Source: Tetraselmis striata (Eukaryota; Chlorophyta; Chlorodendrophyceae; Chlorodendrales; Chlorodendraceae). From it: a stretch of 64,000 bases of DNA. The position numbers and the translations under genes are program-made. Positions 896 through 62,706 of this stretch are shown here, piece after piece (position 1 is the first letter of the stretch; each line of letters starts with the position of its first letter). Under the pieces are notes generated by a model. The model saw only the letters and a list, made by a program, of their open reading frames with translations, did no database searches and had not been told where the DNA came from. The stretch lies in NCBI GenBank assembly GCA_006384855.1, contig VCJN01000931.1:1-64000 (forward strand). Reading direction: 5' to 3'.

Positions 896-932
896 TGCCA
901 GTAGTCCTGCCCTGCCCGGGAGCGAAAAAAAA
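896..932 (+). repeat. SINE-like tail, copy 1 (short, diverged)
   Basis: The segment reads GCCAGT...CCTG...CCCGGGAGCG followed by eight A. It matches only the 3' end of the dispersed family seen in fuller form at 36374-36533 and 46990-47149. It is the most diverged of the five copies and could be chance similarity. Confidence 0.4.
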
Positions 933-3346: not shown

Positions 3347-4007
3347 CAACGCTGCTTATGTACCTACTCATGATCGTAATTTCATCCCGTATGCACTACC
3401 TTCCTTTAATTCATTTACGATGATGCACAGAGCAAGTGCCTCATCGCCTGAAGTGTCCCCATCCGGTGATGACCGAGCCCCTCCATCCCCGGTCCTCGTG
3501 TACCCTATTATGCACTGTCTATGTGATAAACTCCTGTGGCCACCCACACATACTCACATGATGTCCCCGGCAGAGAACTCTCATGCTAGTCGGAGAACAA
3601 AGCTTAATGAGTACTATACATAACGGGCGCCGTACAATCTGAGGAAGGCATGGTACCAACCTCGTATCGCATTGCCACCACGCATGGACGTGTGATACGC
3701 ACCGCAGTGATGAAGGGGCACTGGTACGAGGTTATTTGGAACCCAGAGTGCCTTCGCCTAACGTGGCAAAGGCATGCCGCACCCAATTGAAAGGAGGGTT
3801 CAGCTCCAGGGATGGAAGGAATATTACAGGCGCTAGACACTCTATGGACATTTGCACGACTTGAATCTGAAAAATACGAACGTGCAGATTGCTCTGTTAT
3901 TTGCAGGGCAGTGGGCGCACGGGTTGAACTGCTGGGGAACGCAGCAAACGACGCAGCCGGGTCCAGGCGGCAGCCCGCCCGTCGCTCAAGACAGCGAGCA
4001 GGAAGGC
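3347..4007. other. Convergent intergenic region
   Basis: This lies between the 3' ends of the AAA ATPase gene (+) and the TSNAXIP1-like gene (-). It should hold both 3' UTRs. I see no further gene, structured RNA or repeat. Confidence 0.6.
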
Positions 4008-7000: not shown

Positions 7001-10000
7001 CGCTCACCTCCAGGAAAAGCGCAATCTGTGGGCTTGTGGCCGCGTGGTTGGTGCAGGACACAAGCAGCCTGTATGCCGCGTGCGCAATGCGGTCCATGTC
7101 GGGCTCGCCCGCCACACGGCGCGCCCAGTGGAACATGAAGTCACCCACGTGGTGCAGGCGGCCGGTGGCGGCGTCATTGTCGCGCTTGGCAGCCCACAGC
7201 GCGGCGACCTGCGCCTCCGCTTCGGCAACCGGCATCTCCGGGAAGGACATGCGCCCCTCGTAGCGCAAAAAGCGAGGGATCTGGTTGGGAGGAATAAGAG
7301 CAGCCAGGAGGTGTTAGCCTCATTAGCATCCTGGCGAGTATGCATATCATAACAATGAGAACTTCGTTGATATTGGCAAATGTATCGGCAATTAACGGTC
7401 TATACTTGCACCAATATGTACCAGTCTCAAGCAACGGATGGGCCACCGTGTATGTGGCTCCACAGAGAGGAAACAAAACGGGGCACCGCGGGGCCGTCGT
7501 GGCCGCATGGGAAAGCGGCCCCACCTCTGCGCCGAGCCCGAAGGCGGTGATGCTGATGACGGGCGGCGCGGCAGGGTCCTCCAGCGCGCGGTCGATGCCC
7601 TGCCAATTGAGCGCGATCATGGGCGGCTCCGGTGTGAGCAGCGCCAGTGCGTTCTCCGCGGTGGTTTGCGCATCGCTCAGCTGCGCCATTGCCTCTGTCA
7701 GCGCCTCCGCTTCCTGAAGGACGAGAAGGGAGTAAAAAGCAAGCGCGAAAAGGTATTAGAGGGGGGATTTTAGTGGTTGATAGTCAACATTTCGATAATC
7801 GCATATCCCCAAACACAAACGGCGGGTGCCTATGTCTAGGCAACAGCATGGCACCGAAACAGGCGACCCGAGACTGGCTGCTTGAACCTGTGGGACAGCT
7901 GTTTGCCACAATGGGATGCTAACAGCTGCTGAGATTCAGGATCGCCGTGGAGAGAGGGGGCAGCCCTACCTTCTTGCTGGGCCCAGCGTCGGCATCCTCT
8001 CGCCGCAGGCGCCGCACCATGCGCTTGATCATGTCCTTGGAGCTCGTGCCCGGCGGGGGCTCGCCCTCGCCAAAGGGGTCCAGAACCTTCCAGTTGACGC
8101 GCGGCGTCATCACCTCCTTGATGCGCTCCAGCCGCAGCTCATCCGCGCGCTCCTGCAGCCGGCGGCGACCGAAAAGTCAACGCCATGCGACAGCCCACAG
8201 CGGCGACAATGGCATGGAGGGCATCTGGTTGGGCTTCAGGCAACAGCAACCAATCGCACCTTGTACTTCTCCACATCCTCTGTGAGCTCCGCAATCCTCT
8301 TTTCTGCAGTCTGTGTACATATATCGTGATGACAGTGAGGATTGGCAGCCAGTGCATTACAGAAAATGGCAACAGAGAGGAGCGGGTTGGAAAAAGGGGG
8401 GGGGGGGGGGGTTGAACGCACCATCAAAGTCGTCGCGGGTACCAGCTTGGCCTTCTGCGCCTCCACCTCCTGCACGCGAGCCTCCGCGTCCGCCACCTGC
8501 CGCTTCATGTGTTGCATGCGCAGCCGCAGCGCGTTTTCCTGGTCCTCTGCCTCCTCCCGGGCGGACGTGCTGTCCGCCTCCAGCCGCCTGTGGTCATCCC
8601 GCAGCCGCAGCAGATCCTGCACCAAAGAGAGGTGGGTAGAGGAAACACCCGCCCCATAGCTGCTCAGCATCCGCTCAGTGCACCCGCCCAGTCTCCCAGT
8701 CTCCCAGGCTTCATCTGCTGCGCCGCGGATGCGCGATACCTGCATGTCACCGCTTCGTGGAGTCGCGGAGAATATACCATCAGACTACTTCCTATAACAT
8801 TTCATTTGGTTCTTTATGTTAAAAAAAGGAACTGCTTTGGGGCGTGGAGGCGGAGTGTGCGTTGTATCCCCGTGGCATGGTGTAATGATTTAGAGATTGA
8901 CGTTCTCTGTCCTTCCCAAGGGCGCATATTAAAGTGGCAACATACATCGAATCCAAAGCGAGGATATGGTAATGATAATAATTAATTTCTAGACACTTCT
9001 CACAGGCAGAGTGCGCCACCACGCGATAGATTGAACCAATCAACGGCATTGCCAGTTCAGGGTTTTTGTGTGTGTTGAGGTCATGCATGAGCAGAAGGGG
9101 TGGGGGCGCCCGGGAAAGGGGGGGGAGGCACTCAGGGGCGGGAGAGGGGCAGAGAGGGGCAGAAAGCCGCTGACCTTGCGCGCCCGCTTCAGCTCCTCCT
9201 TGGCGCCGGTGGACTCCATCTGCATGTCTCGCTCCCTCTCCTGCAGAGCCTCCACCTGCAAGAGGGGCTCACTATCAGCCTCTTTGCAGCAACCTTTCAC
9301 AGCCGAAAGCAGGTAAGAGCAGCTTTGGGGTGGGCGGGGGGAGGCGCACCTCAGCACGAAGCGTGGCGTTGGCTTCCTCCGACTCGGCCACCTTTTCTTG
9401 CAGCATGGCCAGGTGCCCCTCGACCTTTACCATTGCGCTCTGTGCAGCAGTAGAGGCAGGAAGGGGGGGTTGAGGTGCACAGAAGGTTAGGGGTCAACGA
9501 TGCATCCATATCATGGCATATGGCCCGGCTGTGCGTGCATTACATAGAGGATTCACTTTCGACCGACCCGCTGTTCAGGCAACATAGTGGTACATCCTTT
9601 ATACAAGGATAAGTGCCAACTATCCTGGCGGCAGCGTTTCAGATGCTTATCCACTATCTGAGGAGATGCAGCCACCGATCTCCAACTTGTCTTGCGGAAT
9701 TATGGCGTATACTTGAAGACTGCAACAAAGCTGTTGCCTACACGGGGCAATCCGTCACTGGGCTGCGACACAGCAAAGGCCGTCATGGAGTGTTGACTGT
9801 TGCCAGTCATGTCCCGGGGATGAGAGAAGGTTCTGCGCGCCGGCTGATTGGGATCCGGTACGCACGCGGCTGTTTGCGGCATTCGAGTTTAGCGTGGGGA
9901 TTGCCGCACAAGCGCGGTCAAAGCTGAATCATTCTGTTTATTCTGTATACAAGCGCGTATTACCCGCATGGCCATGAGCGGACTGGCTGTGCGTGAAGCG

Positions 10001-12220: not shown

Positions 12221-15061
12221 AGCTACACTGATGGTACTGCGTTTAGGGTTCAACTCAAGCAGCACGTGGCGGCGGGGCCCTCAGGCATGCGCAACGAGTA
12301 TCTCCGCTGCTTGGTGGGCGAATACGCCCCGGCGTCCGGGCCCGCGGCAATCCGCGCCATGTCGGAGGTTGCCTCCATGTATCTCCAAGGTCGCCTACCC
12401 GGGTGGTTCAACCGGCTCTTCGCCTCTGCTAGGCTCGTGGCACCTGTCAAGAAGCTAGGTGAGGGGAGGGCCCCGGACGTGCGGCCCGTGGCAGTCGGGG
12501 AGGCGGAGCGGCGCGCAGCGGAGCGGGCAGTGGTTGACAACATGAAGGAGGCATACGTGTCGGTGCTCGCTCCATCTCAGCTCGGCGTTGGCATTCCCGC
12601 GGGCGACTCTGTGCTCATCCACGGCGTCCGGCTCATCGCCGAGAAGCTTGGCCCACGTGCCGTCATCGTCCACACAGACCTTCGCAACGCTTACAACGAA
12701 GCATGGCGCCGCACCACCATCCAGCGCCACATCGATTGCTCTCCACTACACCCTGTCATCCCTGCGCTCCTAGCCTCCCTCTCCACGGACTCGTATCTGG
12801 TCGTGGACGACCGGTCCGCCCCTCTGCGGTCGGAGGACGGCGTGCAACAGGGCGCACCTTTGGCCACGACTTCCTTTTGCGTCGCGATTCACCCCGAGGT
12901 GCAACAGTGTGATACCACGTTGGAGGTCAATGACGGGGCAGCGCGCTTCAACGCCGACGATGGAATTTTGGTGGGCCTTCCGGAGCACGTTTGGCCGGCT
13001 CTTCACGCCTTCCGCACGTCCATCAAGGCGTCCGTGGGGCTTGAGGTGCGCTTCGACAAGATGCAGGCGTACAGCGCAGACATGGAGGCGGCGCGGCGTG
13101 AGGCTCCGGCCGACATCGAGTGGCCAGAGCTAGATGGCCATCACGGCATCGCGGTCCTCAACGTGCCGCTCGGATCGCCAGAGTATGTGCATGCGTACAT
13201 GCGCGGCAAGGCGGAGGAGCTACGAGAGGAGGTGGACGCTAGCCTGAGCAAGCTTCTGTCTGCCAAGCCCAGCCGTCGGTACACCCACGCCTTGCATCAC
13301 CACGCATGGGCCCTGCTCAAGCATTGCATGCAACACAAGGCGGGGTATTGGCTCCGCAATTGTCTTCCGTCCGAGGTGGAGGCCTTTGCGGAGGCGGTGG
13401 ATGCCACCATCCTCGCGGCGGTCGAACGGGTGCTAGGGGTCTCTTTTGATCCCTCCACGTACGGCACCGACACCAATCCGGTGGTCACCGATTTCTTGGC
13501 GGAGCTTCTGCACGACCCCGACCCCATGGCAGCGGAGGTGGCTACCTTGAGCGAGGATGCAGTGGCCAGGGCGCGCAGCAGGCTTCACCTCCCCACTCGA
13601 TTGAAGGGAGCTGGCATCCGCCGCATGGCTGCCGTTCGTGATGCCGCCTTCATCGGCTGCATGAATGCCATCCTCCCAAGGTTCCCGACTAGGAACTCCG
13701 GCACCAACACCCCCACCCCTGGTTTCTTCGACCCACAGCTCGGGTCCGTACTTGGCCGAGGCAGCTTCAACGCAAATTCTTCCGCCCGCCAGTATGACCA
13801 CTTCCTCAACGATGCTCATGGGTCGGACAGCTACGCCGCGGAGATGCGCGAGGCGTGGGGCCGCCTCCAAGCGGCTACTGCTGGCCATCTCGGCGACACA
13901 GATGCACGCCAGATGGAGCGGGAAGTGGAGGCTGCGTCGGGCTCGCAAAAGGACCTGACGGCATTTCTAGACCAGGCCAACAACTCTCGGCTTCGAAATG
14001 AGGTGTGCGCTCTCCCTGCCACATGTAGGGAACGGATCTTGTTCAACCAGCTCGACGCGGCGTCAGGCATGTGGACAGTGGCCATCCCCACCGCGCGGAC
14101 AGCCATGACTCCGCATGAGCTGCGGGAGGTCGCTGCCGGGTACTTCTTTCTGCCTAGCCCATGCTTGGCCCCGGTGGTTGGGTGCCAGATTATTCTGCCC
14201 TCGACGGAGCACAACCCCGTGATTGTTGATCTATACGGCGACGCGCTCATGAACCTCCCGGCGCCTGGAGACGCTCACTGGCGTGTACAGCACGACGCTA
14301 TCGCAGATGCCTTCCGCGATCACTGTGTTCACGACCTAGGTATCGCGGTACGGCGGGAGGTGGATGACTTGTTCCAGCAGGCAGTGCCTCTCGGCAACAC
14401 CGTACCCCGGGATGAACTCAAGGACCTAGTGCCGGACGCAGAGCTCTCCCTTCCGGCGTTCAACGTCGTGACCGGGAGCTATGATCCCCGGAGCTTGAAG
14501 TCCACGCTGCTAGAGTTCAAGACTATGCGGTACGGGGTCAAGTACACTTCAGTGCCCCGGGCCACAGCTGTGGATCGGTTTGAGCGCTCCCTGTTGGGCG
14601 ACATACAACGGGGGTTGGCTGCGCGGGACGCGGCGTGGCACAACACAGAGCCCGGACAGAAGGGTCCTCTTCGAGACATCCTGGATATGTCGGAGTACAC
14701 GGGCATGGTCTTCGGCACAGTGGGTGAGGTGAGCAAGGGGGTGCACCGCACAGTGCGTGGTATCGCATGCTTGGCTGCGGACCGGGGTGCCCTCTCATCG
14801 CGGGGCACTCGGTGCATCACCCGGGCTCACCAGGAGGCCTTGCTCGCAAGAGATTTCCTCGGGGTCCTGAGCTTGGTGGCCGCTCGAGAGCGTGCTCGCT
14901 GCCTCATCAGACGGCGCAGATTCGTCTGCCATCCCGTTGCTGAAGCTGCACAGCACGTCCGAGGATCACCCACACACACACGTGCTCGCGTGGCCCGGAC
15001 TCTGAACCGTGTGCGCATCACTCATCCATCCCGCCTTATGCGGGATGCGGGCCGCTTTTAG
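12221..15061 (+). CDS. Reverse transcriptase of a non-LTR-type retroelement, 5'-truncated
   Basis: One uninterrupted frame opens just after a stop at 12218-12220; the first ATG is 12287 (about 925 residues). RT signatures are in order: GPSGMRNEYLR (fingers), DLRNAYNEAWR (motif A, with the catalytic Asp), GVQQGAPLATTSF (motif B, QG.PL) and FNADDGILVG (motif C, the usual F/YADD). No endonuclease, RNase H or gag-like domain is visible, and the frame begins almost directly at the RT domain, as expected for a 5'-truncated insertion. About 600 residues of unrecognised C-terminal sequence follow. All catalytic Asp residues are kept and there is no internal stop, so the copy looks young or selected. 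The 3' region has TGTAA near 15105, a green-algal-type polyadenylation signal. The exact clade cannot be assigned by eye. Confidence 0.85.
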   Translation, partial: SYTDGTAFRVQLKQHVAAGPSGMRNEYLRCLVGEYAPASGPAAIRAMSEVASMYLQGRLPGWFNRLFASARLVAPVKKLGEGRAPDVRPVAVGEAERRAAERAVVDNMKEAYVSVLAPSQLGVGIPAGDSVLIHGVRLIAEKLGPRAVIVHTDLRNAYNEAWRRTTIQRHIDCSPLHPVIPALLASLSTDSYLVVDDRSAPLRSEDGVQQGAPLATTSFCVAIHPEVQQCDTTLEVNDGAARFNADDGILVGLPEHVWPALHAFRTSIKASVGLEVRFDKMQAYSADMEAARREAPADIEWPELDGHHGIAVLNVPLGSPEYVHAYMRGKAEELREEVDASLSKLLSAKPSRRYTHALHHHAWALLKHCMQHKAGYWLRNCLPSEVEAFAEAVDATILAAVERVLGVSFDPSTYGTDTNPVVTDFLAELLHDPDPMAAEVATLSEDAVARARSRLHLPTRLKGAGIRRMAAVRDAAFIGCMNAILPRFPTRNSGTNTPTPGFFDPQLGSVLGRGSFNANSSARQYDHFLNDAHGSDSYAAEMREAWGRLQAATAGHLGDTDARQMEREVEAASGSQKDLTAFLDQANNSRLRNEVCALPATCRERILFNQLDAASGMWTVAIPTARTAMTPHELREVAAGYFFLPSPCLAPVVGCQIILPSTEHNPVIVDLYGDALMNLPAPGDAHWRVQHDAIADAFRDHCVHDLGIAVRREVDDLFQQAVPLGNTVPRDELKDLVPDAELSLPAFNVVTGSYDPRSLKSTLLEFKTMRYGVKYTSVPRATAVDRFERSLLGDIQRGLAARDAAWHNTEPGQKGPLRDILDMSEYTGMVFGTVGEVSKGVHRTVRGIACLAADRGALSSRGTRCITRAHQEALLARDFLGVLSLVAARERARCLIRRRRFVCHPVAEAAQHVRGSPTHTRARVARTLNRVRITHPSRLMRDAGRF

Positions 15062-33135: not shown

Positions 33136-33770
33136 GGATTGACACGATAATTTGCAATATATGTACTGACGGTGGAAAACGATTTGAATTCGTATATTAA
33201 CATGTTATGTTGATGGGTATTCGTAGAATAATATGTTATGATGTAATGTTATGATGGGTTTTGCATATATTATCCTTGGCGCTACCCGTAGCTATTGACC
33301 ATGCTTCTATGCTGGCGGCTGCCGGAAGGCTTGATGCTGGAAGGAGAACCGCAACGCACATCACATACTGCCACACCACTATCGCCTCACCAAACCATAC
33401 ACTCTTCCCTCACGATACCAACGAGTGTGGACGCTGCGGAGCCAGCCGCGGATCCTGCATTGAACGACGGCGAGGGTGGCGTTCCGGTGCCATCGGGAGG
33501 GGCTCAGCAGAGCGACGACCGCAAGCAGCGCGGCGGAGGCATCACTCTGCGGCGGCGGCATCACCCCGCGGCCGTGCCGCTACTCGCCCCCTGCTAACCA
33601 ACGTGTCGCGCTGGTGACTCGTCCCAGTTCCCTACCGATCCTATTCAGTCCGTGTCCCATACCGGCGGTCCCGCGATGGGTGCCGCACATGTATTAGCAA
33701 TCTGTTCAAACGCACAATTTTTTCGCGGCTCTGCGCCGTTGTTTGGGGAGGTGGGTGTCTTCATGCCTGA
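33136..33770. other. No gene recognised
   Basis: AT-rich then GC-rich DNA. A 100-residue frame at 33295-33597 has ordinary composition for chance GC-rich frames and no motif. Nothing else is seen. Confidence 0.4.
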
Positions 33771-33925
33771 ATTCCGTCTGAATATCCGCATAACCTGAAC
33801 TGAACGGACTTCATGCTGAGTTCAGGTCATGAATTCAGCGCCTAGATTCAGGCTGAAGTCTGTTCAGCTGAATTCAGTTCAACTTGAACTGAATACCTCC
33901 AGGAGGTACTTCAGCGCAACCCTGG
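33771..33925. repeat. Palindrome cluster built from TTCAG/CTGAA
   Basis: The region is dense in TTCAG and its complement. A perfect 11-bp inverted repeat with a 1-nt loop lies at 33872-33894 (ATTCAGTTCAA / TTGAACTGAAT), followed at once by a 7-bp palindrome at 33894-33908 (TACCTCC / GGAGGTA). CCTGAACT near 33796 pairs with AGTTCAGG near 33821. A SINE-like tail begins right after it. Confidence 0.85.
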
Positions 33926-33983
33926 TAGGGGCGCTGCAAGGATTTTACTGGTGCCAGTCCTGTCCCGGGGGCGGAAAAAAAAA
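33926..33983 (+). repeat. SINE-like tail, copy 2
   Basis: It contains GCGCTGCAAGGATTTTACTG and CTGGTGCCAGTCCTGTCCC, then GGGGGCGG and ten A. It is nearly identical to the 3' third of the longer copies, but its 5' side is a palindrome cluster instead of the family's 5' sequence, so it is truncated. Confidence 0.85.
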
Positions 33984-34105
33984 CACGATTCGGAGCCTAG
34001 TGCTTGCAACATTCCGCCTATTTATATAACATGTGCTAGACGCAACATCCCCCCACCCCCCTGCCTCCCCCCCCCCCCCGCCCCCCGTCACCCCCCCGCC
34101 CTATG

Positions 34106-34441
34106 TCACCTTTCTTGGGATACTATGGCCGAGCCACATGCGCCATTGTTGGGGGTATGGTTTTTAGGATATATCCGGTTAATTAAGGCCAGCAATGCCT
34201 TGGCAAAATCGCTATTCGGGGCGTATATCGCAAATTTTAAAGCCTCCGCAGTATTCCCATGATGCCCCTGGGCCTTACTGTTTTTTAAACGCCTAATAGT
34301 CTTGACAAGGTCCTCCCATGCTATAGGCCAATTAATCCCTTTTAGCGCGGGGCCAATGGGTAGCGATGTACCGTGGCGGTGTTCCCACGCCGCACGGTAT
34401 ATCGCAACCCGTTGTGCTAGGGGGTGGGGGTTCCCCGTCAC
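34106..34441 (-). pseudogene. Non-LTR reverse transcriptase fragment
   Basis: The minus strand reads WEDLVKTIRRLKNSKAQGHH...EALKFAIY...FAKALLALINRIYPKNHTP. This is the classic start of a non-LTR RT domain (I.KLKN.KAPGPDG, then L..L.N.I). Only about 110 residues survive; the rest of the domain does not continue in any frame. It is a different family from the RT at 12.2-15.1 kb, judged by the fingers motif. Confidence 0.7.
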
Positions 34442-36373
34442 GCAGCAGCTTCCGACAGTGCGCGCCCGCCATCACGCCTTGGTGTCGCCCGGCTCGGCAT
34501 GAATTACCCCCAATACCGGATCGCGTATTGGTTGGTCGCTCGCGCCGTGCTCGAACGAACCCTGCCCCTTACGGAGAGCGCGCCCATTTCCAGAACTCCC
34601 GTCTCCCACCACCCTTCTTAAAATCCTAAACCGCTTTCCGCACGGCCCGCCTTCTCGGGCAGCGGCGGTTATTTCGTACTAGTGTCCGATCCCTATGCCG
34701 TGCAGCAACTTAATGTGCCAACGCTAGAGCGTCATCCCGAGGGCCCCTAGTCCCCCGGAACGCCATGAAAGCCTGCGCCGACGATTAATCGCCCCTAGGC
34801 TAGACCGTTGCAGCGGCAGTCCTAGGCCACGACGCTTGGGCTTGGGTACAACCCGCCGAACATATTGCCTGGATAACGTGCTCGGCACCGGTGTCTAGGG
34901 GACCCCCCCCCCCCCCCCCCTCCCGAGGGCCCGCCGTTTGCATGTGGGTGATCTATAGAGGAGCGAGCACCGCGAACGGATTAGCGGCGACGAAATCGTG
35001 GAACGGCTTCGGCCATTCAGAAGGCGGAGAGTCACCGTAGGCCGGTTTGGGGAAAGGACCTTGCAGACAAACGTTCATGCATGGGAGGCGGACGGGGATC
35101 CTCACGGATCGCGCCCACGGAGAAAGAGGACATGACATGGAAGTGATCGGAGGTGTCCCAAGCGTAGTCCACCCATATGCCGAGGGCGAGAGAGGGGGGG
35201 CGGGGGGCGGGGGCTACGGTGGGGGGGGGAGGGGGGGGGGGGGGGGGCACGCCATGAAGTGGTCGAGAACGCGGCAGCTACCCCTCCAACAAGTGCCGCG
35301 TTCCCGCGCCGATACGTCCCGCGGTGACATGGGTTTACCGCCGAGAAGGCACCGCCGACGCCAGAGTTGAGCCGCCAACTCCCTTTCATCCATGTTCCAA
35401 TCCCCCCCCCCCCCCCCCCCTCACACACACACACGATCAAATCCCTCGGATAGCTCGTATGAAGCCACGCCAAATCTTTGCGTTGGCGGTACCGATAAGG
35501 CTCCCCCATGTGAGCTGATGGGCAAATAGGCCGAGATAAAAATTGGGGCCAATTTAACATCCCCCCACCCGGACACATGTCCAACATGGGTGGGGCGCGC
35601 CGACTGCCCTCGCCCGATACAACGACCGGACTAGCACACAACACCCACGTTCCGATGCAGCGCGGTCACCGAACGAATATTGTCGGAGTCCCATTATAAA
35701 AACGCACTCGCATATATCGGTCGCAATAATGTGGTCTCCTAAACGATCAGAACATCTACGGAGCGCTCGATCAGCATCGCGCCAGCCAACATCCTCCACC
35801 TTGGAGGACAACCAATCACATCAAGCGTCGCAACGCACAAATGGGCGGGCATGGGAGGGAAGGGAAAAGGGAAAAAGGGTGGAGAGGAGGTGGAGGGCGG
35901 GCGGCGTGGCGTTCCCAGCACGAGCGATATCCATGAAAGTACCATCCCCATCGGCATGCAAAACGTTGTAAACGCTCACGGACATGCGCACCCTGCCCTT
36001 GGGTATAATGCACATCAAAGCGCACTAGCCCATCAGACACGCTGCAACACGGGTGCCCAGCCGTCCAGGGGTGAACCTCCGTCACTACGACGACTGCACC
36101 CGGTGGCGCGCGGCTGCCCATATCATGGCCAACCTTGCGTAGCGGGGCCGGTGTGTACCGTCGTACCGTGTCACCCCGGGCCAACAACGGCAAACACAAA
36201 CATAACGCTTAAAAAAAGTAGCAATGTCTCGCACTACCGGTATGGTACCGTCGCAATTTTTAAAATATGATATGCCTTTTCGGGTGGTTTCCTGATCGCC
36301 TATTGCAGCTCATGTGAACATATTATATATATTATGTATATTCAGTAAGAAAACACAGATTTTATGAATATCA
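34442..36373. other. Repeat-rich stretch, probable decayed mobile DNA
   Basis: Long minus-strand frames exist (34953-35138, 35554-35811, 35816-36199), but frames break into each other and no domain is recognised. C or G runs lie at about 34904-34920, 35221-35247 and 35403-35420. The setting suggests remnants of retroelements; this is inference from the neighbours. Confidence 0.35.
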
Positions 36374-36533
36374 GATTAGTCTTGCGAAATGCTTCGGCAA
36401 TTTGCTTGGTGACTATAACGCAGCGTCGCCTACCCAGGGCTTTCCGTAACTGGATTGCTGCCTAAACGGCCGTCGTAGAGACGCTGCAAGGGTTTCACTG
36501 GTGCCAGTCCTGTCCCGGGGGCGAAAAAAAAAA
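36374..36533 (+). mobile_element. SINE-like element, copy 3 (long copy)
   Basis: A block of about 160 bp ending in ten A. It aligns by eye along its whole length with the copy at 46990-47149: GGCAAT.TGCTTG.TGACTA, GC.GCCTACCC, CGGCCGTCGTAGAGA, GGGTTTCACTGGTGCCAGTC, then CCCG..GGCG and the A-run. It has no coding capacity. The length, the shared 5' end with copy 4 and the A-rich 3' end fit a SINE or the 3' end of a LINE. It lies about 420 bp upstream of the DUF1295 gene, same strand. Confidence 0.8.
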
Positions 36534-36958
36534 CAATCTAGTAACGTTAAGAATAAATATCCTGAATGTCGTCGAAACTAGGAGATATATAATTTGATGT
36601 TACTTACAGGTATCACAGGTATGGAGATATTCATCCTCAGGATAGGCTCGCGTAGTGGCGTCGTTACCGTCACCCGGCGCCGGCGGCCCGATGACGGGCG
36701 ATGACGAATTCCGCCCGGCGGGTGAAATTGTTGGAAGTTCACACTGTGCCAACTTCAGCGCACCGCCACAACTACCGGTGGCCCAGCACTAACGGGGTCG
36801 GAACACAGCCGGCGAGTCCACCGAGGGCCTGCTGCCAAAACCCCTGGAAGCAGCTACCGGGGCATAATTGAGCCGGAACACTCCTTCCCTGCAAGCATCG
36901 TTTGCTTCGGCGCACACCGCCCTCCGCGCCGCTTCGGGCCGGGCTTATTGTCTCCACC
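36534..36958. other. Upstream region of the DUF1295 gene
   Basis: Holds the presumed promoter and 5' UTR of the gene starting at 36959. The reading frame stays open upstream to 36902, so an earlier start is possible. No TATA-like or other element can be assigned with confidence. Confidence 0.4.
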
Positions 36959-37357
36959 ATGGCGGGCGCCGACGGCAGCGGCGCGCCGGCGCCATTCGAA
37001 GCATACGCCGACCCCTACCTTCTTGGCGTCACCGCCGCCGGGACAATCGCCTACCAAGCGATCTTCTTCGTCGTCACCGCCGTCTGCCGGACCGACAGAA
37101 TCACTGATCCCGCGGGCGGAACGAATTTCGTGCTTCTGGCGGGCCTCACGCTGGGCTTGGGCGCGCGCCCGCCCAGCGTGCGGCAGGCCGTGCTTACCGG
37201 CATGGTAGCCGCCTGGGGGCTGCGTCTTTCGGGATTCCTCTTCCTGCGGATTCTGCAATGGGGGCAGGACCGCCGCTTCGACGCGCAGCGCCGAAGCCTG
37301 CCGCGGCTGGCAGTCTTCTGGAGCCTGCAGGTTTACAACCCCTCCCTCTCCCTACCA

Positions 37358-37403
<46 letters not shown>

Positions 37404-38305
37404 CGCGCGCGTGCGCAAAAACGCACCCCTTACAGCCTGGCTATGTGGGTACCGTCGCCGTCCCAGCTCGAAGACCTGGCTGAGACCCCCCCCCCCCCCC
37501 CCCCCGCTCTCTACCTGGGGCCTGCTCTATTCAGGCGCTGTGGGTGTGGACCGTCAGCCTGCCCCTAACGTTTGCGAACTCGCCGCCGGCGCTGCCCGCG
37601 CCGCTGGGTGCCCTGGACTACGTGGGCTGGGTGGCGTGGGCCGTGGGCGCAAGCCTGGAGGCGGTAGCAGACCAGCAGAAGCTGGCGTTCAAGAAGGCGC
37701 AGGAGAATCGCGGGCGATGGTGCGATGCCGGCGTGTGGGGCTGGAGCAGGCGTGAGTGTCCCAATTGTCTGCCCCGCCGTTGCAGACAGGCATGCCATGA
37801 TGTGGTTTCTGGCGGCTGGCGGCCATCCTTGTGCGTCCATGTCCGCGTGGATATTTGTCAGGTGAGAATGAGAGGGGGGGGGTCGCAACTAGCTGATGTG
37901 TCCCGCTGCTGTGCAGATCCCAACTATTGTGGGGAGATCGTGCTATGGTGGGGCGTCTACCTCTCCGCCCTGCCCTCCCTGGTTGGGCCAATGCACTCCG
38001 CAGTGCTGGGGCCGCTGCTCATCACGGCTCTGCTGCTCTTTCTGTCGGGCATCCCGCTGCTGGAAGCCAGCGCGGACGGCCGTCACGGCGACGATCGCGG
38101 ATACCGTGACTACAAGGCCTCCACCAGCCCGCTGCTCCCGCTGCCGCCGGCGTGCTGGGCGCCGCTGCCGCGATGGGTCAAGGCCGCGCTGTTCGAGTAT
38201 CCCATGTACAGCAAGCTGAGCAACTCCACCATCGACGTCAGCTTGTCGGCCGATGAAGAGGAGAGCCAACCCGGCAGCAGCCCAGCCGGCAGCAGCTCTG
38301 CTTAG
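36959..38305 (+). CDS. DUF1295 / steroid 5-alpha-reductase-like membrane protein
   Basis: Three exons, 36959-37330, 37535-37751 and 37917-38305, in consistent phases (0, then 1), encode about 325 residues. Several membrane segments are evident (GTIAYQAIFFVVTAV, FVLLAGLTLGLG, ALWVWTVSLPLTF, LGALDYVGWVAWAVG, GPLLITALLLFLSGIPLL). The DUF1295 core includes LRLSGFLFLRILQWGQDRRF, GWVAWAVGASLEAVADQQK, HPNYCGEIVLWWGVY and SGIPLLE, the pattern of the 3-oxo-5-alpha-steroid 4-dehydrogenase superfamily, which reduces steroid or lipid double bonds with NADPH at the ER. The true substrate is unknown. The first intron carries an (AC)n microsatellite and an 18-nt C run near its acceptor. The Kozak-like context at ATG 36959 (CCACCATGG) favours this start over the upstream in-frame ATG at 36902. 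Confidence 0.88.
37359..37401. repeat. (AC)n microsatellite in an intron
   Basis: About 21 perfect AC units lie in the first intron of the DUF1295 gene, about 30 nt after its 5' splice site. Confidence 0.95.
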
Positions 38306-40731
38306 TCGCCCACTCCCCTCCTGGCAGGCTGAACGCATTCCGCTCCCAGGGGCAGATGTGCTAGGTGGAATATTTATATGTATATATATAGTACGTTCAC
38401 GCCAGGGCGTAGTAGTACCTTGGCAACGCGCATAGCAGCAGGACATCAGTTCCCTCCCCTGCCCAGGTGCTGGTGTTTCCCCTGCTCGGAGTGAAGAGAG
38501 CACCGCAGCAGGCTGTTTGGGGTGGATGTGTTTCACTTGCTATAGCAATCACACCGCAGGTTCGTAGTGCCCGCCCATTGTCCCAGGGAAGCAGGCGGGC
38601 TGCCCGCGATTTTCGATGCCTATCTGGCTGCCTGCGTCTCTGGCGTGTCGTTGAGGTACTATGCCAGGGGCTAAAGCCAGGGGGGTATCAGCAGCGTGCG
38701 CAGCGCCATATCTAACGGTTTGTAACTGACTATTATCCACGCGCCGTCTTGTGCAAGCGGATAAAGCCGCTGTGCCGATGAGCGAGGCGCTGTGATACGG
38801 TGTGATGTCTGCATGTAAGGAGTTTGCCACGGTGGCCGATGTCTTTGCTCACGTATTTGCAACTGGCTCATCCGCAATCACCAGCCCCTCCAGCTTTGCC
38901 ATGCAGTACTGGAAGGCCTCCTTGGCGCCTGGCCCCGCTCAAAGCAGGGCACGATTTCCACCCTTAAAACCCTCTGGCAGCCGCAGCCGCAGAGCGGTAC
39001 CTCTTGTCTCCTCGTGTGGCTAGGACGGCACGCAGTGGAACGGCCTGTCAACCTCCACTAGCATGCCCTCTGCTTCCACCCTGACAGTCACATCCGCCAC
39101 GAAATGCCAATCATCAGACACCCACCCTGCCTTGCACGCCCTGCGCAGTTGCTGTAGCTAGGTGATTACCGCGTCCCAACGCAGCCACGCGGATTGGCGG
39201 CGAGCTGCGGTCTTCTTGCATGCTACATGAGCCTAGCTAAGTAAATGGATCTTGTAAGGCAGCCTCTCGGGCAGCTGGCGAGCGCAGACCCAGCCACGTG
39301 TAACCCTAGTAACCCTAGCTAGCACATCTAGTCCTCATTGAAGGCGGTGCCCGTCCTTCAAACGTGTTTGCCCCTGCAATTCTTTCTTAAATGAGGCTGC
39401 TGTGGTCAGCTGGCATTTCCGCGCCCATATCTTCAAGGACTCCAGTCTTGCAAGTTGTACTTTATAAGCATTGAATTTTTTGGGAGCTAGCGGAGCTCTC
39501 CTGAGAGGCTGTGGCGGAAGAGCTAAAACTGAAAGAGGTGGCCAACCAAAGCGCACGCCGTGAGGATGTTGCCGAGGCGGCAGAGCGCTCTGGCTGACGG
39601 AATTCGCTATGAAGTACTTTGTCGCAGATCAAAAAGTCTTATCATCACTTGGCTGTGCTGTGAGCCCACACTGTGACGGCCCGGTCCTGGAGGTTGAAGA
39701 TCCCCTCCTACCTAGTCCAGTGCAAGAGGCAAAGCTCCAGCAAAGAGCGATGTATATCATATCAAGGTGCCCCCCTGAGCTGTGTGCCGCGACAGTAACA
39801 GACTGTAGTTACGACGAAAACCTTGGTATTAGAGCTGCTCAAGCCGGAAGGCCGAGCAGGCAACAACAGTTGGCAACGGCCAGGGAATTGATGCCTGTGT
39901 GATGAGATCCCGTTGGATCATAGCCATGGCAAGCGTCACGGGTAGGCACATGCCCCAACTGGCGCCACACCTCCCAAAGCCCCTGCCCATCGCCCAGAGG
40001 GCGCACATGTCCGGTGTGAAATCCATGTGCCGCGTACCGCTCTTGGGCGAGTGTCAGCCCTTTGCTGTCGCTGCTGCGCTCCCGTGTGGGACTCCACGAC
40101 TACTTCCAAGCTGTGCTGCCAATCCGTTACTGCCTAAGTGGGCTCCTCCGGTGTAGTGGGCTATTGTGCCACGAGATCACACAATGGCAGGACACAGATA
40201 GAGCGGTACTGAGGAGGAGGTCCGGCCAAGTATACTGGGGACTCCCCGATTTGGAGCATGGCCGGGTGTCTCTAGGGATGGGGAAGCATACACCCCGCCA
40301 AAGGAGGCAGCGCTATCCCAGGAGCACAGGCAGGCGCCGCTCCTGCACTGGTGTGGATCTCTGGCTGGCGCCCCGGGCTGAGTGCCCCCAGGGCGCCCTG
40401 GCTCCGCAGGCCGAGGTGACATTTCGTGCCTGGACTGACTGGCACGCGGCGCTGTGGCCGTTGCACGCGGAGAGCCAATCGCAAGCAGGGCGAACAGCGG
40501 CCGCACAACCTGTGACGGGTGGTGGCGTGGGTGCCGTCCGGCCGTGGGAGCGGGGTTTCTCCAATCCAGACATGTCTGAGACGTGTCTCCGCTGAAATCA
40601 CTGCTGCTACGCGGTGCGCTTAGATGTTGGATGTACGTGTCAGTATTAATCCAGTAGTGCAGGACTTTGTCCATTGTAGGTAGGGATGGAAAGATGGGGG
40701 GGTGGGGGGTGAAAGGGGGCTTTATTGTTTG
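38306..40731. other. Convergent intergenic region with degenerate frames
   Basis: This lies between the DUF1295 gene (+) and the A2M gene (-). The minus strand at about 39110-38860 reads as protein-like sequence broken by two in-frame stops, and 39556-39335 has a 73-residue Lys/Leu-rich frame. Neither matches a family I recognise; both may be pseudogene debris. No RNA gene or long repeat is seen. Confidence 0.4.
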
Positions 40732-42813
40732 CTAGCAGCTGCTGCCGACAGACAGCGGGGCCGCGGCGCTGGCGCCCATGATTGAGGGGTCATTCACGGC
40801 GGTGGCCACCACGGGCGGCGACACAAACTGGCCGAGGTACGCGGCGGCGGCATCCACCTCGACGGTGGTGGTGCCGCGCGGCAGCGTGGCGTAGTGCACC
40901 AGCACCAGCGTGGGCCGCTGCACGAAGGAGGGGCAGGCGTAGATGTTGGAGAGCGGCCGGAAGTTGGAGGGGCCGCAGGTGCTGCGAGCCCCGCCGCGCG
41001 ACCGGCCCGGCTGAGCCGCCGCCGCCGATGCCGACGCTGATGGCGCTACGCTGGCATCGCTGGCCAGCATGCCGCCCGGCATGGGGACGACCACCTGCCG
41101 GCACAAAGTGGCGCAAGTCAGTGGCAGCCGGCGCTACCCATCACCTCCTTTCCGATGATTCTAGTGGTACAGGGATGCGATGCATGAATCTGGATACACC
41201 TACCATGGTAGACCATGTATAGAGCCGGCAGTGTACAGCATACCATATGTAGAGAGAGGTGGACGTATGAGGCTGTTTTATGCACCGGCACGACGTGGCT
41301 CAGAAGCATCGCTGCAGGCGCACACGCACATGCGTGCTGCGCGCCCCGCATGTGGGAGGGAACGACTCCGCTGCCGCCCGGGAGGGGGGGGGGGGGGGAG
41401 GGGGCGCAAACCTCCACCGCCTCCAGCGGGTCCGCGACCGACAGCGTCACCACCAGCTTGGCGACCTCCCCCAGGCACAGCCGCCCCGCTGGCGCGCCGG
41501 TGGTGGCGTTGAGCCACGCGGCGGTGACGAGGACCCCACGGCGGAGTGGCCCTGGCGGCGGCGCCACCGGCTGCAGGCGCAGGCTGAGCGCCACCGCCGC
41601 GCGCGCGGGGCCGCTCATCCGGAAGGACAGCGGCGCGCCGGCGAGGCCGCCCACCGCCACGGACACCTCCGCCAGGCCGCCGCCGCCGCTTTCCCACAGC
41701 GTGAGGACTTGGTCGGCGGCGCCCAGGTGAAGGGTAAGTCGGGACGGCGCGCGTGGGAGGCCGCTGCCCGGCCCCACCCGCCCCGCCAACACGCCGTCGT
41801 ACGCCGCCAGGCTCAGCAGCATGGCGGCCAGCGCGCGCGGCGGCGGCGCGGAGGACGGCAGCAGAAAGGCGTCGCCATCCGCAGCGCCGCCGCCGCGCTG
41901 CGCCACCGCCTCGCCCAGCCACTCCAGCAGCTGCTCTGCGTCCGCCAGTGGCGAGCGCGGGCCGCCGCCGCGGTGGCTGCGCTGCAGCTGCGCCGTCAGG
42001 TACAGCGCAAGCGCCGCGGCCTCGTCGTCCAGGTGGCTGCTGCTGCCGTCTGCGTCGGAGCGGCGGCGGCGTGAGCGTCAGTGGCAAAGGGTGAGTGAGA
42101 GAGAGGGGGGAGGGGCATGGGCAGCAAGGGCGCATCTGCACTAAAATATCATAATATACAAGCACGTAGATGGCAAAAATTCAAACGGCGGCGGCTGGCC
42201 GTGTTTTCCCAACCTTTTAGCGCTGTTTTCTATTTCTATTCTATTGTGATGTACTGTGTATTGTGATATACCATCGTCCTATTGTTCGAAGTGTTCCATT
42301 GTAACAGACTGTTTGGACACAGTAGTAAGGATTACATAATCCTTCATGTCTGCGATCCTTAGCATATGCGCTATGTTATTCCTACCAATACATACACGCG
42401 TTTACGTGTACAAAACCGTGTAAGGAGTACCTGACGCGTCAAAGTACAACGCGTGATGCTTCCAGTATGATTTTTATGAAAACATTATGTTTAGGGGCAT
42501 CGGTGCGCATTTCTGCATCGCTGTCGAATTTCAAACAATGCACGTTTTCCTTCATCAACATCCAAACTGCCAACCCATTTTCTTTGTATTATATTGTATT
42601 GCATTGTTTTATGATATTATAATATCCTTATTTCCCTATTATATTCTATTATATTCTATTTTTCTATTCTATTCTGTTCTATTGTATCGAATTCCAATGT
42701 ATTCTATTCTAATATATTCTGTTCTGCTCCAATAGATTCTATTCTGTTCTATTTCTAATCGCCAAATTTCTATCCTAATAGACTGTTCATGTCCTGTCAT
42801 GTCATGTCGTGGA

Positions 42814-42851
<38 letters not shown>

Positions 42852-43152
42852 TGCGCGGCAGAGGCTTTCTATTTGAACCTCATTTATCGATGGTAATCGA
42901 GTCGGTTTCGTTTGGTGCATATCATTGTCCACCGAATGGGGCGCGGTTACGCCTTCACACGGTTACTACCTTCACACTCATCGTCAGCTAACGCACTACA
43001 AGGCCTGGCCGCGCTGTTGTCAAGGGTCCCTCCTCTCTTATTGCCTCCCTGCTCTCGAAGACCAAAGAGCCACACCCACTAACACAGTGCCCTGCGCTGT
43101 CCCAAGACCCTCCCATTGGTGTGTTTGGGAAGGCGGTGGGTGGGTGGATTGG

Positions 43153-43184
<32 letters not shown>

Positions 43185-45138
43185 AGAAGGGCTTGCCTTG
43201 GTCGGCCAGGAAGCCGCCCGTGGCGGAGGAGCGCAGCCGAACGCTGTCGCCCAGCTCCCCCAGCACGCGCGACAGCAGCGCCCCGTCCGCCGGCTGCGGC
43301 CCGTCCAGCGCCGCCAGCCCTGCGTGCAGAACGCCCAGCAGGCCGAGGCTGCCCACGGGGTCCGCGGTCCTCGCCGAGCCGCGCACAGCGGCGGCGGTGG
43401 CGGCGCTCACGCACTCCGCGCCGCCGCCGCTGCCGCCGTGCCCAGCCTCTGCACCCCGCACACACGGAGCTCTGTCAATCTGCCGACTTTTAGGGTTCAG
43501 GGCTTTTGAGGGTAGGTTTCAATAAAATGGGGTACAGTCTAGGGTTTATAAAACATGTTTAAAAACCCTTAAACCCAACATGGGAGCGCGCAGGGCAACT
43601 GACTCCCCGCCGCGCTGGACCGATGAGAGGGGGTGGGGGGTGGAGGAGCTTGCGCTTGTTGGCAACACGTGTTGGCGCAAGTGGAGCGGCATGGGCCTGC
43701 CGGAAATACTGCACAGTCGTATAGCCAGCATCAACCTTGGCATTGGCCTCTAGATGTCAGCAGTCTCAATCGATATTCACGTGGTACGATTTATGTCTGG
43801 ACTGAAAGGCACTGTTGAAACCGTTAAATCCTTATATATCCGTACAAACACAAATGTTCCGCGGGTAGATAACATTTTGCCCCCCATCCCCCCCCCCCCC
43901 CCCCCCCCGGGGGGAAGAGAAAAAACCTATTGAAACGGAGAATAGTTCAGAATGTAGCACGAATACAGAACAAAATATTTCGACGCAAAGGTGCAAAACT
44001 TTTCATTGTTTCGCGGACCCGCGGACCGTATTCAATTGTGCGGTAGTGCCAAGACCACACTAAAAGTCTAGCGCTCAACTATCGCCTCCATTCCTGTACT
44101 TGTGCCGTGTGATCACTGGTACCAGTGCGGCCGTGCGGGTACCGCCTAGCTCGGAGATCCATCGGGTTTAGATCTCAGGCCTCAGGCCTCCCCAGACAGC
44201 TCAAAGATGGTGCTGCGTGGGCGACGGGCAGGAACAGAGTCACGGAGGGGGCGGCCCTCACCGCTGGCGTCGCCCGCGCAGACAGGCAGCTCCCACGCGG
44301 GCGCCAGGCCCAGGCGCACCGCCAGCAGCACGTCCCGCGGCAACGCCGGCTCCGCGGCGCGCAGCTCGCGCACCGCGCCGCGTGTGAGCGCGCGCCGCCA
44401 GTTGTCTGTTGGCCGCGGTGTCAGGGTACACCACCGCATGATTGTCAGGAAACGAGGGGACGAGGTTGCCGGTAAGGCTGGCTTGGTGGGGGAGAGCCGC
44501 AGCCGCAGCCGCAGCCGCGGTGCCGCGCTTGCCATGTGTCGGCGGCAAAGGGCATTGAGGCTGTCCGGCGCAGAGCAGATGCTGCAAGTTGCGAGTAGCT
44601 CCGGTGGCGGGGCAATTGCCCCCCCATGGCATTAGAGCCGGAAAGAGGCGGAGAGGGAGCGGGAGAGGGAGAAAGAGAAGGAGAGGCAAAGATGTGGTGG
44701 CGCGCCTCACATAGGCCCCTGCTGCTGGTGTGGTGACACACGGAATGTAGTGGGCGAGTGGGCGACAACGGTGATGCATGGGATAAGCTGTGAATAGAGG
44801 GCATGCCGCAATGGGCAAACACCCCCCCGCCCCTCCCCTCTCTCTCTCTCTATCTCTCTCTCTGCTCACTTGGTGGAGCATATGGTGTAGCTACCACTAC
44901 ACAGCAAGAGAGGGGGAGAGCGGTTGCGCTGCGGGTAAATGTCTGGCGTATCTGGCTGCCGGTGTCGAGGTGACAGGTACAGCAGTGGGTCAACTAGCCG
45001 CAATGGCATTGGACATTGGGAAGCCAAAAATATGAACATGCTTTGATGGCTAAACCGGCAGCCAGGAAGATACAGTCACAGACAGACACACAGACACAGG
45101 CACAGACACATACACAGACAGACACAGACACACACACA

Positions 45139-45211
<73 letters not shown>

Positions 45212-48200
45212 CCTGCTGCAAAGGTGCGAGTACCAGCACGTTTATCGTAGCGGCATGATGTATATCAAAAGATGATTCACTGTAGTTGTTTGCCACATGT
45301 CACTCAGCGGGGCGGAGTGGATTCAAGAGGGAGTAGACGATTGGAGTAGCCGGCATGTCAGGGAGATTGGCGGGAGGCGGATCAGGCGCCCACCTGTCAC
45401 CCTGGCGGGCACCGTCTCGGCCCCCGTCAGCGCGCTCAGCTGCCGCACCAGCCACAGCGCCCAGGCGGTGAGGCGCAGGTCGGCCCGCAGCGGCGCGGAG
45501 CCGGAGGGCAGCAGCCCGCAGCAGTCTAGACGGGTGCAGCGGCACAGCAGAGCAGGCACAATCAGCACATAATCCTTTGGGGGGGGGGGGGGGGGGGGGG
45601 GAGGGCTTAGCGTTTGACACCCTGACCCCCCATTCCTCCAGCCATGCGCTGCATCCTACACTGCCCCCGCGGGGCACCCCTCCCCTGATGGGTACCGCTG
45701 CCACACCGATAAAGCGCCTGGCGCCGCAGCTTGACGTCAATGTGGAAAGCTGGCCAGAGACATCTACCGGACCAGCTGGAGAAACCGATGGCTCCAACGA
45801 ACCACGGCGGCGAGGCTATGCTGCCGGCTGCGCGCATTACCCACACCATTCATCTGCCTTGGCTGGCACCATCACGTTACCAGTTTGCAGCCTAGCGCAG
45901 ACCATTCCGAGCTGTGGTCGTGGAATGCTGTTAGGCCTTTTTATTGGTTCGTAGTATCCTCCTCTTCGCGGGGTTTGAAAACAGTTGAGTATGTGCACAG
46001 CGCCAAAGGGTGCACGGACAGGTGCGCTTTAAACGGTGGATATCCCGAGGAGGGGGGGGGGGGGGGGCGCACCCACGGTGCGCCGTTGGAGCTCCGACAC
46101 CGCCGCTGCCGCAGCGCCGCGGGCCGCACGGAGCGCCGCCTGCAGCCGCGCGCTATCGGGGCTGCTCTCCTGGTACGCGGGCAGCACGGCTGCCGGGACC
46201 AGCTGGGCCAGCAGGCGCTCGCTGCTGAGCAGCGCCGCGGGGGAGCTGCGGCCGTGGGGTGGGGTGGGGTGGCGGGGGGGGGGGGGGGGGGGACAGGGCG
46301 CTCATCGATGGGAGCCAGGGGCGAGCGCGAGCATCCGGGTGGCGGAACGCAGGATGGACGGCAACTGATGCCTGGAGGCGGGCCGCGACACGGGATGGGT
46401 GCGCTGGCTGTGTCGGGAATACATTGATGATCGGTAGTTTGCAGGCGAGGGTTCTCGGGGCGGGCAGGTGGGGAGACAGCCCGTGCATCTTGGAGGGATT
46501 AATGTCTAAGCACGAGGACGAGGCGCGGCGCAGCAGTTATTGTGATAAAGCTGCACCGCGGAGAGGGGGGGGGAGGGGGGGGGGGGGGAAGTGGCTAGTG
46601 AAGCCAGAGTGGTGGAGGAGGTACGGGGAGGGCACCTGGCTTGCTGAGTCTCGTGCGCAAGGCCAAGCAGCACCGGCAGGTGGTCGCCCGCCACGGCGAT
46701 GCTGAGGTTGCTGTCCGGGGCCGCCCAGCTGCTGCCCAGCTCCACCGCAGTCTCGCGCGTCGGGGTGGAGCCCTGCCCACCAGCAAAACATAATAAGCTC
46801 ACCCTCCAGCTTTTTGGTCTTTACCCTCGAGTAATAAAACGTCCAGCGAGGAATCAGCTTGAGCGCGAAGCGGTACCACAACTCTGTCCATGAAATCCTG
46901 CATCTACCACAAGCGTCCGTAACAGGAATGCATGATTTCGCGTAGCCGTCCCTCGATCCGCGAGCTGGGATGCTGATGTACGGCCTCCAGTTAGTCTCGC
47001 AGAAGGCTTTGGCAATCTGCTTGATGACTACAACGGAGCGCTGCCTACCCGGGGGCTTTCGTAACTGAATTGATGCCAAAACGGCCGTCGTAGAGATGCT
47101 GCAAGGGTTTCACTGGTGCCAGTCCCGTCCCGAAGGCGGCAAAAAGAAAGTATGCTGATGTTCTGAAGAGTGTAAAGTTTGCTTTCCACATGCGTGATAC
47201 CGATACTAAACCGCAATGACAACGGCATTTTATCATTGCAGGGCCGCAAGCTGCACCATTGTACCTGGGACTCGAGCAATGTGTGGACTTTAACGTGTTC
47301 CGCCAAACTTGCACATCCCCCCCTGGCACCCAAGGGCAGCGCCGCACAGGAAAGGGGAGCATGGCACAAGGGGATGCGCGGTTGGGGGGGGGGGGGGGGG
47401 GGGGGGCACCCCGATGTTGAAGGACTCGAACAGCTGCAGCGGCTTGCCCACCGGCTGGACCGGCACGCGGAGCAGCCGCGGCTCCGCACCGCTGGCGGCC
47501 AGCCGGAGGGTGCTGTCCCCGGGTGCGGTGGCCTTCAGGCGCATGCGCACCTCCCCGCCGCCGTCCTTGGGGTGTAGCAGCGCGGCGCCCGGCGTCAGCA
47601 GCTGCAGACCTCCCTCCAGGACGCTCACCTGCCGCCGGGCGCGGCCACCACGAGCTTAGGGGAGGCCACTGGGACGCGTTCAACAACGTCAACACGTCAA
47701 CATCCATTCCCTGCACTTTACATAACTCAGATACGTGCGTTGTTTTAGGGACTCATGACATTTGCAGATGCGCCGCCAGCGAGGGTAATTGTTCAATGTA
47801 CGCGGAGCGATTACAGGTGCCAGCGCACATGTACAACCCCGTAATACAAGCGTCGACCTTGGGGTTGTGTGCAAAGTATGGAACATCTGCAGTAAGGTTC
47901 GTCAGCATTTGAGCTCTGGCAAGCAGGGGAGGTTTCCAGTTGCAGTGTTTATACTACTGCACCAGCATCCATCAATGTCTTTATTTTAGGTAACCCTATG
48001 CTGCTTTGCCAGGCGACATTCAAGATGCCAAAGGCCAATACCGGAACATGTCATCCGGTTCGCGGGGTTGAAAGATAATGACTGGTTTTGCAGCACCCAC
48101 TCGGAAGATCCGTATCGTGTTTGTGTTGGCGGAAGGGGAGGGGGGATGGCACCTCGACCATTATGGGCTCGCTGGCGTTGCTGGCAGCCTGGACATGGAC

Positions 48201-61109: not shown

Positions 61110-62706
61110 GGTTGCGTGAGAAGTCAGTGGGTGGAGAAACGGGGATATGGACTGACGAGGCGGGACTTGATTGACAATTGCACCAGCAGTGAGGGGCACA
61201 AGTGTTATTGCAAATCAACAGCTTCGATGATGCTCGAGGAATAAAGGAATATCACATGCTGTGCAATCGCTGGCTGAACGGTCTTCGTAGAGACGCTGCG
61301 CTAGGGTTTCACTGATGATGCCAGGCCTGTCCCCCGGGCGGGGAAAAAACAACATATGCTGTGCTGTGCTTCTCGCGCGGTATTCCGAGCTGGGTAGTCG
61401 CTGTACACAGTCTAGCACAGTATTTTTGAGCAGGTCATCACGGTAACGGTCGCTGTGTTTGTGTAGCCACCAAAGAAATACAATAACAGAAGGCATAGCC
61501 CCGCGCGCGGCGCTCACTTGGTTCAGTGCTTGGTCGAAACGCGATAATTCCCGTCTCATATCTACATTTCAATGTAGCCCTACATCTTCGTCTGTCACAC
61601 CACGTCAGTACCGTACTGCTGTTAGCCCGGTAATCCTGGTGTATGCTCACATCACGAACTTCTGCTACACTGCTGGCCACTAACCAATCGCTAGTACCGC
61701 CAATCGTCATCAGGATGATTGCAAATATAAATAGGTGTAGGTGCGATTTGCCTGCTGATGCTGGGAAACGCGGTTCTGACGGCAAGTTACCCCAGCATAA
61801 ATCATCCACACATACCACCGACGTTCACACTTAGAGAAAGGGTAAACTTATGCTATGTATATATTTATATATGCTGTACCGTACACACCATGCAGTATAT
61901 TGCCAACTGTGTGCGCTTGTGCAGTGCTGCTGCTGCTGCATGCTTGTGCGCGTATAGAATGATAAATCGAAACAACTGCTAGCTCAGGAATCCATCCGCA
62001 CCAGCCACATATATTTATTTTTGATCTCTGATGACACCGCCCTCTTTCCTGCTTATCCCCCCCCGCCCCATTGCGCGTAATGACAAGTCTTTGATGCTGG
62101 TGTGCCTGACTGAGCCCTGCAGTCTAGTTCAAGGCTAGCACTCCCCGCATCGGCTGTTTACGGCATGTGTGCGTGGATGTTGGCAGGACCGGGGGTTGCG
62201 GGCGCTGATGGCAGGAGTCAATTTAGCTGGGTGCATTTGCCAGAAAGGTGCCCAGCGGCCAATCCAATTGATGCGTGTTGCCATCTCCAGACCTCCCTGC
62301 CCCTACCACACAGTAGCGCCACCTTCCACATCCGTACTGTTGTGTGAGCACACCTCGTCACTGCCAATATGGTGAGTGCTTTTGTCTGCCTTCACTCTAT
62401 TGCACTTCTACGTCCTCCGGGCTCGCATTTGTTGCACATCTTCATTTCGAAAACACAAGGCATTTCAAAGTTTAAACACACCTGACATCCACGTGTCACA
62501 GGGTTTTTTTCAACCCACAGACAAGTGCTGCTCTACAGGTTGCTAGCCAAGCGCCTGTTGCTGACCCTTCGTCTGCGGAAGGCTCAGTCAGGCACCTGTA
62601 GTGTGTGCCATCACGGACACTGACTTTGGGCAACAGGGCACATCTTACCCCCTTCGGCAGTCTATAGCCCACATGCATGACATACCGCCCTACGCCGCCA
62701 GCCTTG
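61110..62706. other. Intergenic region with a SINE-like tail
   Basis: Upstream of the phosphatase gene (promoter/5' UTR) and downstream of the lipase gene (3' UTR). A SINE-like tail lies at about 61273-61350. No other gene is recognised. Confidence 0.5.
61273..61350 (+). repeat. SINE-like tail, copy 5
   Basis: The sequence reads CTGAACGGTCTTCGTAGAGA, then CGCTGCG, AGGGTTTCACTG, GCC.GGCCTGTCCCCCGGGCG and six A. It matches the right half of copies 3 and 4 with a few small insertions. It lies about 160 bp upstream of the phosphatase start codon, on the opposite strand. Confidence 0.75.

Follow-up and report, generated by a model that had tools for sequence, protein, structure and literature searches.

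We suggest that the A-tailed repeats in the 64,000-nucleotide stretch of Tetraselmis striata DNA analysed here (the window) are, almost certainly, 5′-truncated copies of one LINE, a non-LTR retrotransposon that encodes an APE-type endonuclease and a reverse transcriptase (RT). The initial annotation had described them as a SINE-like family retroposed by a LINE machinery. The mode of movement is borne out, as the copies are truncated to graded extents at the 5′ side but constant at the 3′ end, with A-tails and target-site duplications. The SINE-like nature is not, since the copies start at no fixed point and carry no head of their own, and the LINE body lies upstream.

The window was searched by BLAST with a 220-base query around 36374. 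The five copies annotated initially are all present at their places; however, a sixth, at 9612–9819, had been overlooked. All six lie on the plus strand. The A-run is at the right of five of them, as described; the sixth, which is decayed, lacks a clean A-run. The copy at 36374–36533 (+) comprises about 118 nt ahead of the TTTCACTGG motif, the 3′ end and an A10 tail. It is 98% identical to the copy of locus L043, and the longest direct repeat between its flanks is 6 nt. The copy at 46980–47151 (+) is older (85%) and is flanked by the 10-nt direct repeat ATGCTGATGT at 46970–46979 and 47152–47161. The query matches it at 46991–47148 (E 1e-45), so these two long copies are indeed alike over about 160 nt, at 84%, but the 160 nt are not the whole unit, as other copies continue more than 4 kb upstream. 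The 3′ end of an older copy is located at 33925–33983 (+). It runs from the tail site GTAGGGGC, whose consensus is GTAGAGAC, up to an A9 run, and BLAST matches it at 33925–33985 (92%, E 5e-20). An older 5′-truncated copy is found at 61266–61354 (+; 79%, E 4e-14), with the 9-nt direct repeat ATGCTGTGC at 61256–61264 and 61356–61364. The decayed 3′ copy at 9612–9819 (+; 66%, E 3e-6) is matched by the 220-base query at 9712–9819 (68%, E 2e-5). The shortest putative 3′ end, 896–932 (+), closes with A8; its match at 911–932 is weak by itself (E 0.011), it was not part of the flank tests, and it was excluded from the flank comparison since it gave no LINE match. One additional 18-base match has an E of 0.47.

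The genome search that had been proposed for the family gives a number of copies far above chance. The exact 18-mer TTTCACTGGTGCCAGTCC from the common 3′ end occurs at 2019 places in the genome (224 Mb, 2903 contigs), with 0 places for the reversed control. As 1022 of these are forward and 997 reverse, the shared orientation of the six window copies is probably due to chance. The genome also has 63 matches to the chlorophyll a/b-binding family PF00504, in keeping with a photosynthetic organism, although a cyanobacterial control genome gives matches to this family as well. The window also contains two candidate host sequences, a gene for an AAA ATPase at 2018–3346 (7e-18) and an exon of a DUF1295 protein gene at 36902–37483 (1e-17).

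The LINE is longer than 4.6 kb and has open frames of about 1350 aa. Its two longest copies, at L043 and L016, have 4 kb in common with 94% identity. The frames of L043 are broken, and its domains were therefore scored piecewise, with six pieces scanned against Pfam. The endonuclease is evidenced by Exo_endo_phos (26.7 bits, cut-off 24.5, E 6e-6), and both RT halves match RVT_1 over the Pfam cut-offs (44.0 and 42.3 bits, E 3e-11 and 9e-11). The zf-RVT score of 18.1 bits is under the cut-off of 27.5, and the two frames linking the endonuclease to the RT match no Pfam family. In the PDB one RT half finds the LINE-1 ORF2 protein (E 2e-10), the closest solved protein to this LINE by that half, followed more weakly by R2 proteins; for the second half nothing is matched there. 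A protein search of the genome with the RT yields at least 152 matches (149 of 960 first-look candidates scored), and among the matches listed eight have an unbroken frame of 1335–1368 aa with no stop, five of them of exactly 1352 aa. Copies up to 99% like L043 and open frames of about 1350 aa make the LINE look recently active, and we consider such activity probable. The most upstream 802 nt of the LINE have 40 matches, 34 of which start at the first base, so the 5′ end and any first ORF lie beyond the sequence reached. For these 802 nt there are 214 first-look candidates, against 2019 exact 3′ 18-mers, although the two numbers are different measures.

With the longer LINE as BLAST query, an internal or 5′ piece of it is found on the minus strand of the window at 34105–36134; this corresponds to L043 positions 303–384 (87%) and 517–2382 (82%). 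The piece is old and decayed, covers about 2 kb, by position from the endonuclease region to the RT start, is interrupted by poly-C/G runs and is flanked by two 3′ copies of the opposite strand. Twin priming that would join it to the plus-strand 36374 copy, 240 nt apart, was rejected with identities of 82% versus 98%. Elsewhere, at C1134:94812–108594, four RT matches follow each other on one strand with a spacing of about 4.34 kb and three TAG stops each, which points either to one LINE copy repeated in tandem or to an artefact of the assembly. A 931-aa frame at 12266–15061 of the window (+) scores 23.2 bits with RVT_1, under the cut-off of 29.6. It matches nothing in the PDB, is not meaningfully similar to the single RT piece of the LINE with which it was compared, and is possibly another retroelement.

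Truncation was followed in 49 copies read with their flanks in 48 loci. Eight loci are the best genomic matches, one of them being the window copy 36374, and the other 40, with 41 copies, come from the first 100 18-mer places listed, a sampling by exact 18-mer that favours younger copies. In these 41 copies the left edge is located from 2 to more than 4000 nt upstream of the 18-mer, with a median of 137 nt; it is within 200 nt in 24 copies and within 500 nt in 31. Two copies run past 4000 nt, to the end of the stretch or query, and that of L042 ends at a hAT-type element instead of a truncation. For the target-site duplications, 52 copies were used, namely the 49 from the loci and three more of the window, and in each the 5′ flank was compared with the sequence beginning at the A-run to obtain the longest direct repeat free of mismatches. 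A repeat of at least 9 nt occurs in 24/52 copies versus 0.5% of 2652 mismatched pairs, and one of at least 10 nt in 19/52 versus 0.2%. The remaining 28 copies, 36374 among them, lack a direct repeat of at least 9 nt, which counts against the LINE reading; the left edges of L016_5762, L020, L023 and L031 are misplaced in this test, and L005, L016_4042 and L043 reach the end of the sequence examined, or nearly so, where a duplication could not appear. Among the 22 copies from the loci with at least 9 nt, T stands directly ahead of the repeat in 15; the A with which the repeats begin is partly due to the A-tail.

The 5′ truncation, A-tails, direct repeats and T-preceded sites match the outcome of target-primed reverse transcription. 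By analogy with established LINE biology, the endonuclease would nick the DNA, here mostly after T (NT|A), and the RT would use the nick to prime on the A-tail of the RNA of the LINE. Copying from the RNA 3′ end would usually halt early, so that most inserts would comprise the last few hundred bases. With 5′-truncated LINE inserts, the missing tRNA-like head and pol III boxes are to be expected, as LINE sequence occupies the upstream place where such a head was looked for. The same features, namely an endonuclease together with an RT, an A-tail, variably placed 5′ truncation and target-site duplications, are those of APE-type LINEs.

A tRNA-derived SINE is present in the same genome as a different repeat of about 235 nt. 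It occurs in eight loci (L007, L014, L015, L016, L019, L027, L035 and L039; for example, L035 4760–4987), and its 20-base end has 1283 exact places in the genome (control 0), some of them within 80 bases of each other, so the copies may be slightly fewer. Its head appears tRNA-like, as, judged by reading, it contains A- and B-box-like forms of GCTCGGTAGAGCGG and GGTTCGATTCC. Of three loci compared with Rfam, L035 has a sub-threshold tRNA (25 bits versus 29) and L014 and L039 have no match; ARAGORN predicts no tRNA gene in the eight copies. The tail is of the CTTTA type. Direct repeats of 8–13 nt are found in 4/8 copies, with a null of 1/56 at 8 nt or more. No copy is found in the window at E 1e-5. 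The end of this SINE and that of the LINE have only TGTCCCGGGG(G)CGAA in common, about 14 terminal bases. The 15-mer TGTCCCGGGGGCGAA, with up to one edit, occurs at 44 places in the sampled sequence and at 0 in five single-base shuffles of one strand. By script, 12 of the 44 are LINE tails, seven belong to the tRNA-derived SINE and 25 are other; on reading, 24 of the latter are accompanied by the LINE flank GTGCCAGTC, and the last resembles a variant LINE tail. The loci were picked for LINE tails, so the LINE-tail places are expected, but the seven SINE ones are not. A stem-loop in the LINE end is no better than in shuffles (z 0.59), and the z for the end of the tRNA-derived SINE is -0.65.

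The left edge of the copy at 33926, treated initially as a truncation point, seems to be of another kind, since the window at 33640–33924 is the end of another repeat. This TTCAG-rich sequence (+), which we call X, ends with CAACCCTG, adjoins the LINE tail and continues leftward of 33640. Of 39 other scored genomic matches to it, 38 stop at query 283–291, that is, window 33922–33930, and one at 265. A scan of the window for the left end of X gives no plausible match. In L042 an element Y (about 69–2253) and X (about 2262–4361) are placed one after the other. Each starts with a form of CAGGGTTG and ends with a form of its inverse, which makes inverted terminal repeats. GTAGAGAC stands to the left of Y and between Y and X, and GGAGAGAC to the right of X, giving an 8-bp target-site duplication with 8/8 bases for Y and 7/8 for X. 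Y encodes a hAT dimerisation domain (Dimer_Tnp_hAT, PF05699, E 2.6e-13), whereas the scanned piece of X contains 0 domain families. In L049 an unlike element ends at the same LINE-tail junction. Hence, a hAT-type DNA transposon that ends here, and not a retroposition breakpoint, is the best reading of the left edge of the 33926 copy, whose left part would have been cut away by this element. Such elements seem to have landed at the LINE-tail site GTAGAGAC more than once. They are observed there at window 33640–33932, at L042 61–4369 and in L049 and L050, with similar ends and unlike insides. The inverted terminal repeat CAGGGTTG, the 8-bp direct repeat GTAGAGAC and the hAT domain in Y are as in hAT DNA transposons; different from these is the presence of several unlike elements at one 8-bp LINE-tail site, with most X-type ends elsewhere. 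An earlier idea, that X makes a TA or 6-base duplication, was replaced by the hAT reading with its 8-bp duplication on the basis of the L042 ends and the domain in Y.

The X end and the LINE tail also meet at 11 places in the genome with identical spacing, and in L042 and L050 X with the tail is followed by different downstream flanks, as if X and the tail formed a composite retroelement mobile as one unit, with 33925 as a SINE-like copy of it. This fits with the search for a left junction between the LINE tail and X that would mirror the right one, which gives 0 exact, 2 one-mismatch and 15 two-mismatch places (control 15) and counts against a simple insertion of X, and with L042, where inspection by eye of the 60 bases ahead of Y shows no LINE sequence. 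However, X and Y of L042 have their own inverted terminal repeats and flanking 8-mers, Y has the hAT domain, L049 shows the junction with an unlike element, most scored X copies have no LINE tail, and the X of the window and that of L042 are just 70–75% alike. We therefore find the composite improbable and regard hAT insertions that occurred independently at a single tail site as the better fit. The LINE tail is not the usual site of X-type elements, as of 27 X-type ends followed by TA the 11 junctions include only those of C735 (the window) and C2473. Nor is there support for GTAGAGA as a general target: CAACCCTGGTAGAGA has 16 exact places (control 1), seven of which are among the 11 X-tail junctions, and of the 27 ends only C2473 is among the 16.

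A separate, short non-autonomous SINE family with a LINE-derived 3′ tail would likewise have a constant 3′ end with an A-tail and many copies of just 50–250 nt, and a repeat common to L007 and L039 stops about 25 nt ahead of the LINE part. Nevertheless, that repeat is the separate tRNA-derived SINE, with the LINE inserted nearby, and the LINE of L007 has its own 14-nt direct repeat, which overlaps that of the SINE. The left edges are scattered, and their tightest clump, at 92–93 nt, comprises four copies with unlike flanks; what else is alike upstream consists of simple and scattered repeats and of the X junction that L042 and the window have in common. A SINE with a common head was rejected, as the all-versus-all flank comparison in the sample showed no shared head. 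Where a pol III-derived head (tRNA, 5S or 7SL) would stand, and where the initial annotation had suggested looking for a longer one with A and B boxes, there is the LINE body, and in place of a fixed 5′ end and a short unit there are left edges from 2 to more than 4000 nt. The target-site duplications that it had also suggested looking for are found, at 9 nt or more in 24/52 copies, and so is a LINE with the same 3′ end, through its endonuclease and RT body. We thus regard a separate SINE family as very improbable, while RT, endonuclease, graded truncation with a constant 3′ end and duplications of variable length are all features of a LINE. The copies do continue into a longer common unit, the observation named beforehand as speaking against the SINE reading, but this unit is the LINE and not a segmental duplication or a DNA element. 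Repetition alone would suit a segmental duplication or host DNA that spread in tandem; the flanks differ, which already refutes it, many copies have their own target-site duplications and the copies end at the A-run, so this origin is more improbable still.

The resemblance between the two ends is a lead that the tRNA-derived SINE may use this or a related LINE. As a whole, we doubt the broader proposal, that the LINE moves this SINE via about 14 bases and that unlike hAT-type elements used one 8-bp LINE-tail site and so mimicked a SINE, though we keep it as a tentative one. L1-clade LINEs are reported from green algae (PMC3747384), and Chlamydomonas has a pair in the same genome, SINEX-3_CR and L1-1_CR, in which the SINE 3′ end resembles the LINE 3′ end. 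According to PMC3747384, the pair has about 80 nucleotides in common and both members end in poly(A), whereas the Tetraselmis striata pair has about 14 bases in common and its SINE has a CTTTA-rich tail. A literature search at the level of listings gave nothing that could be linked with this genome.

A LINE family with 5′-truncated copies is of an ordinary, well-understood kind. Its identification keeps a false SINE family out of the repeat library, and the case shows how a window-sized view misleads. With its recent-looking activity, the insertions of the LINE could serve as markers. If the link with the tRNA-derived SINE is true, the two would offer a very short common end for testing the stringency of LINE RNA recognition.
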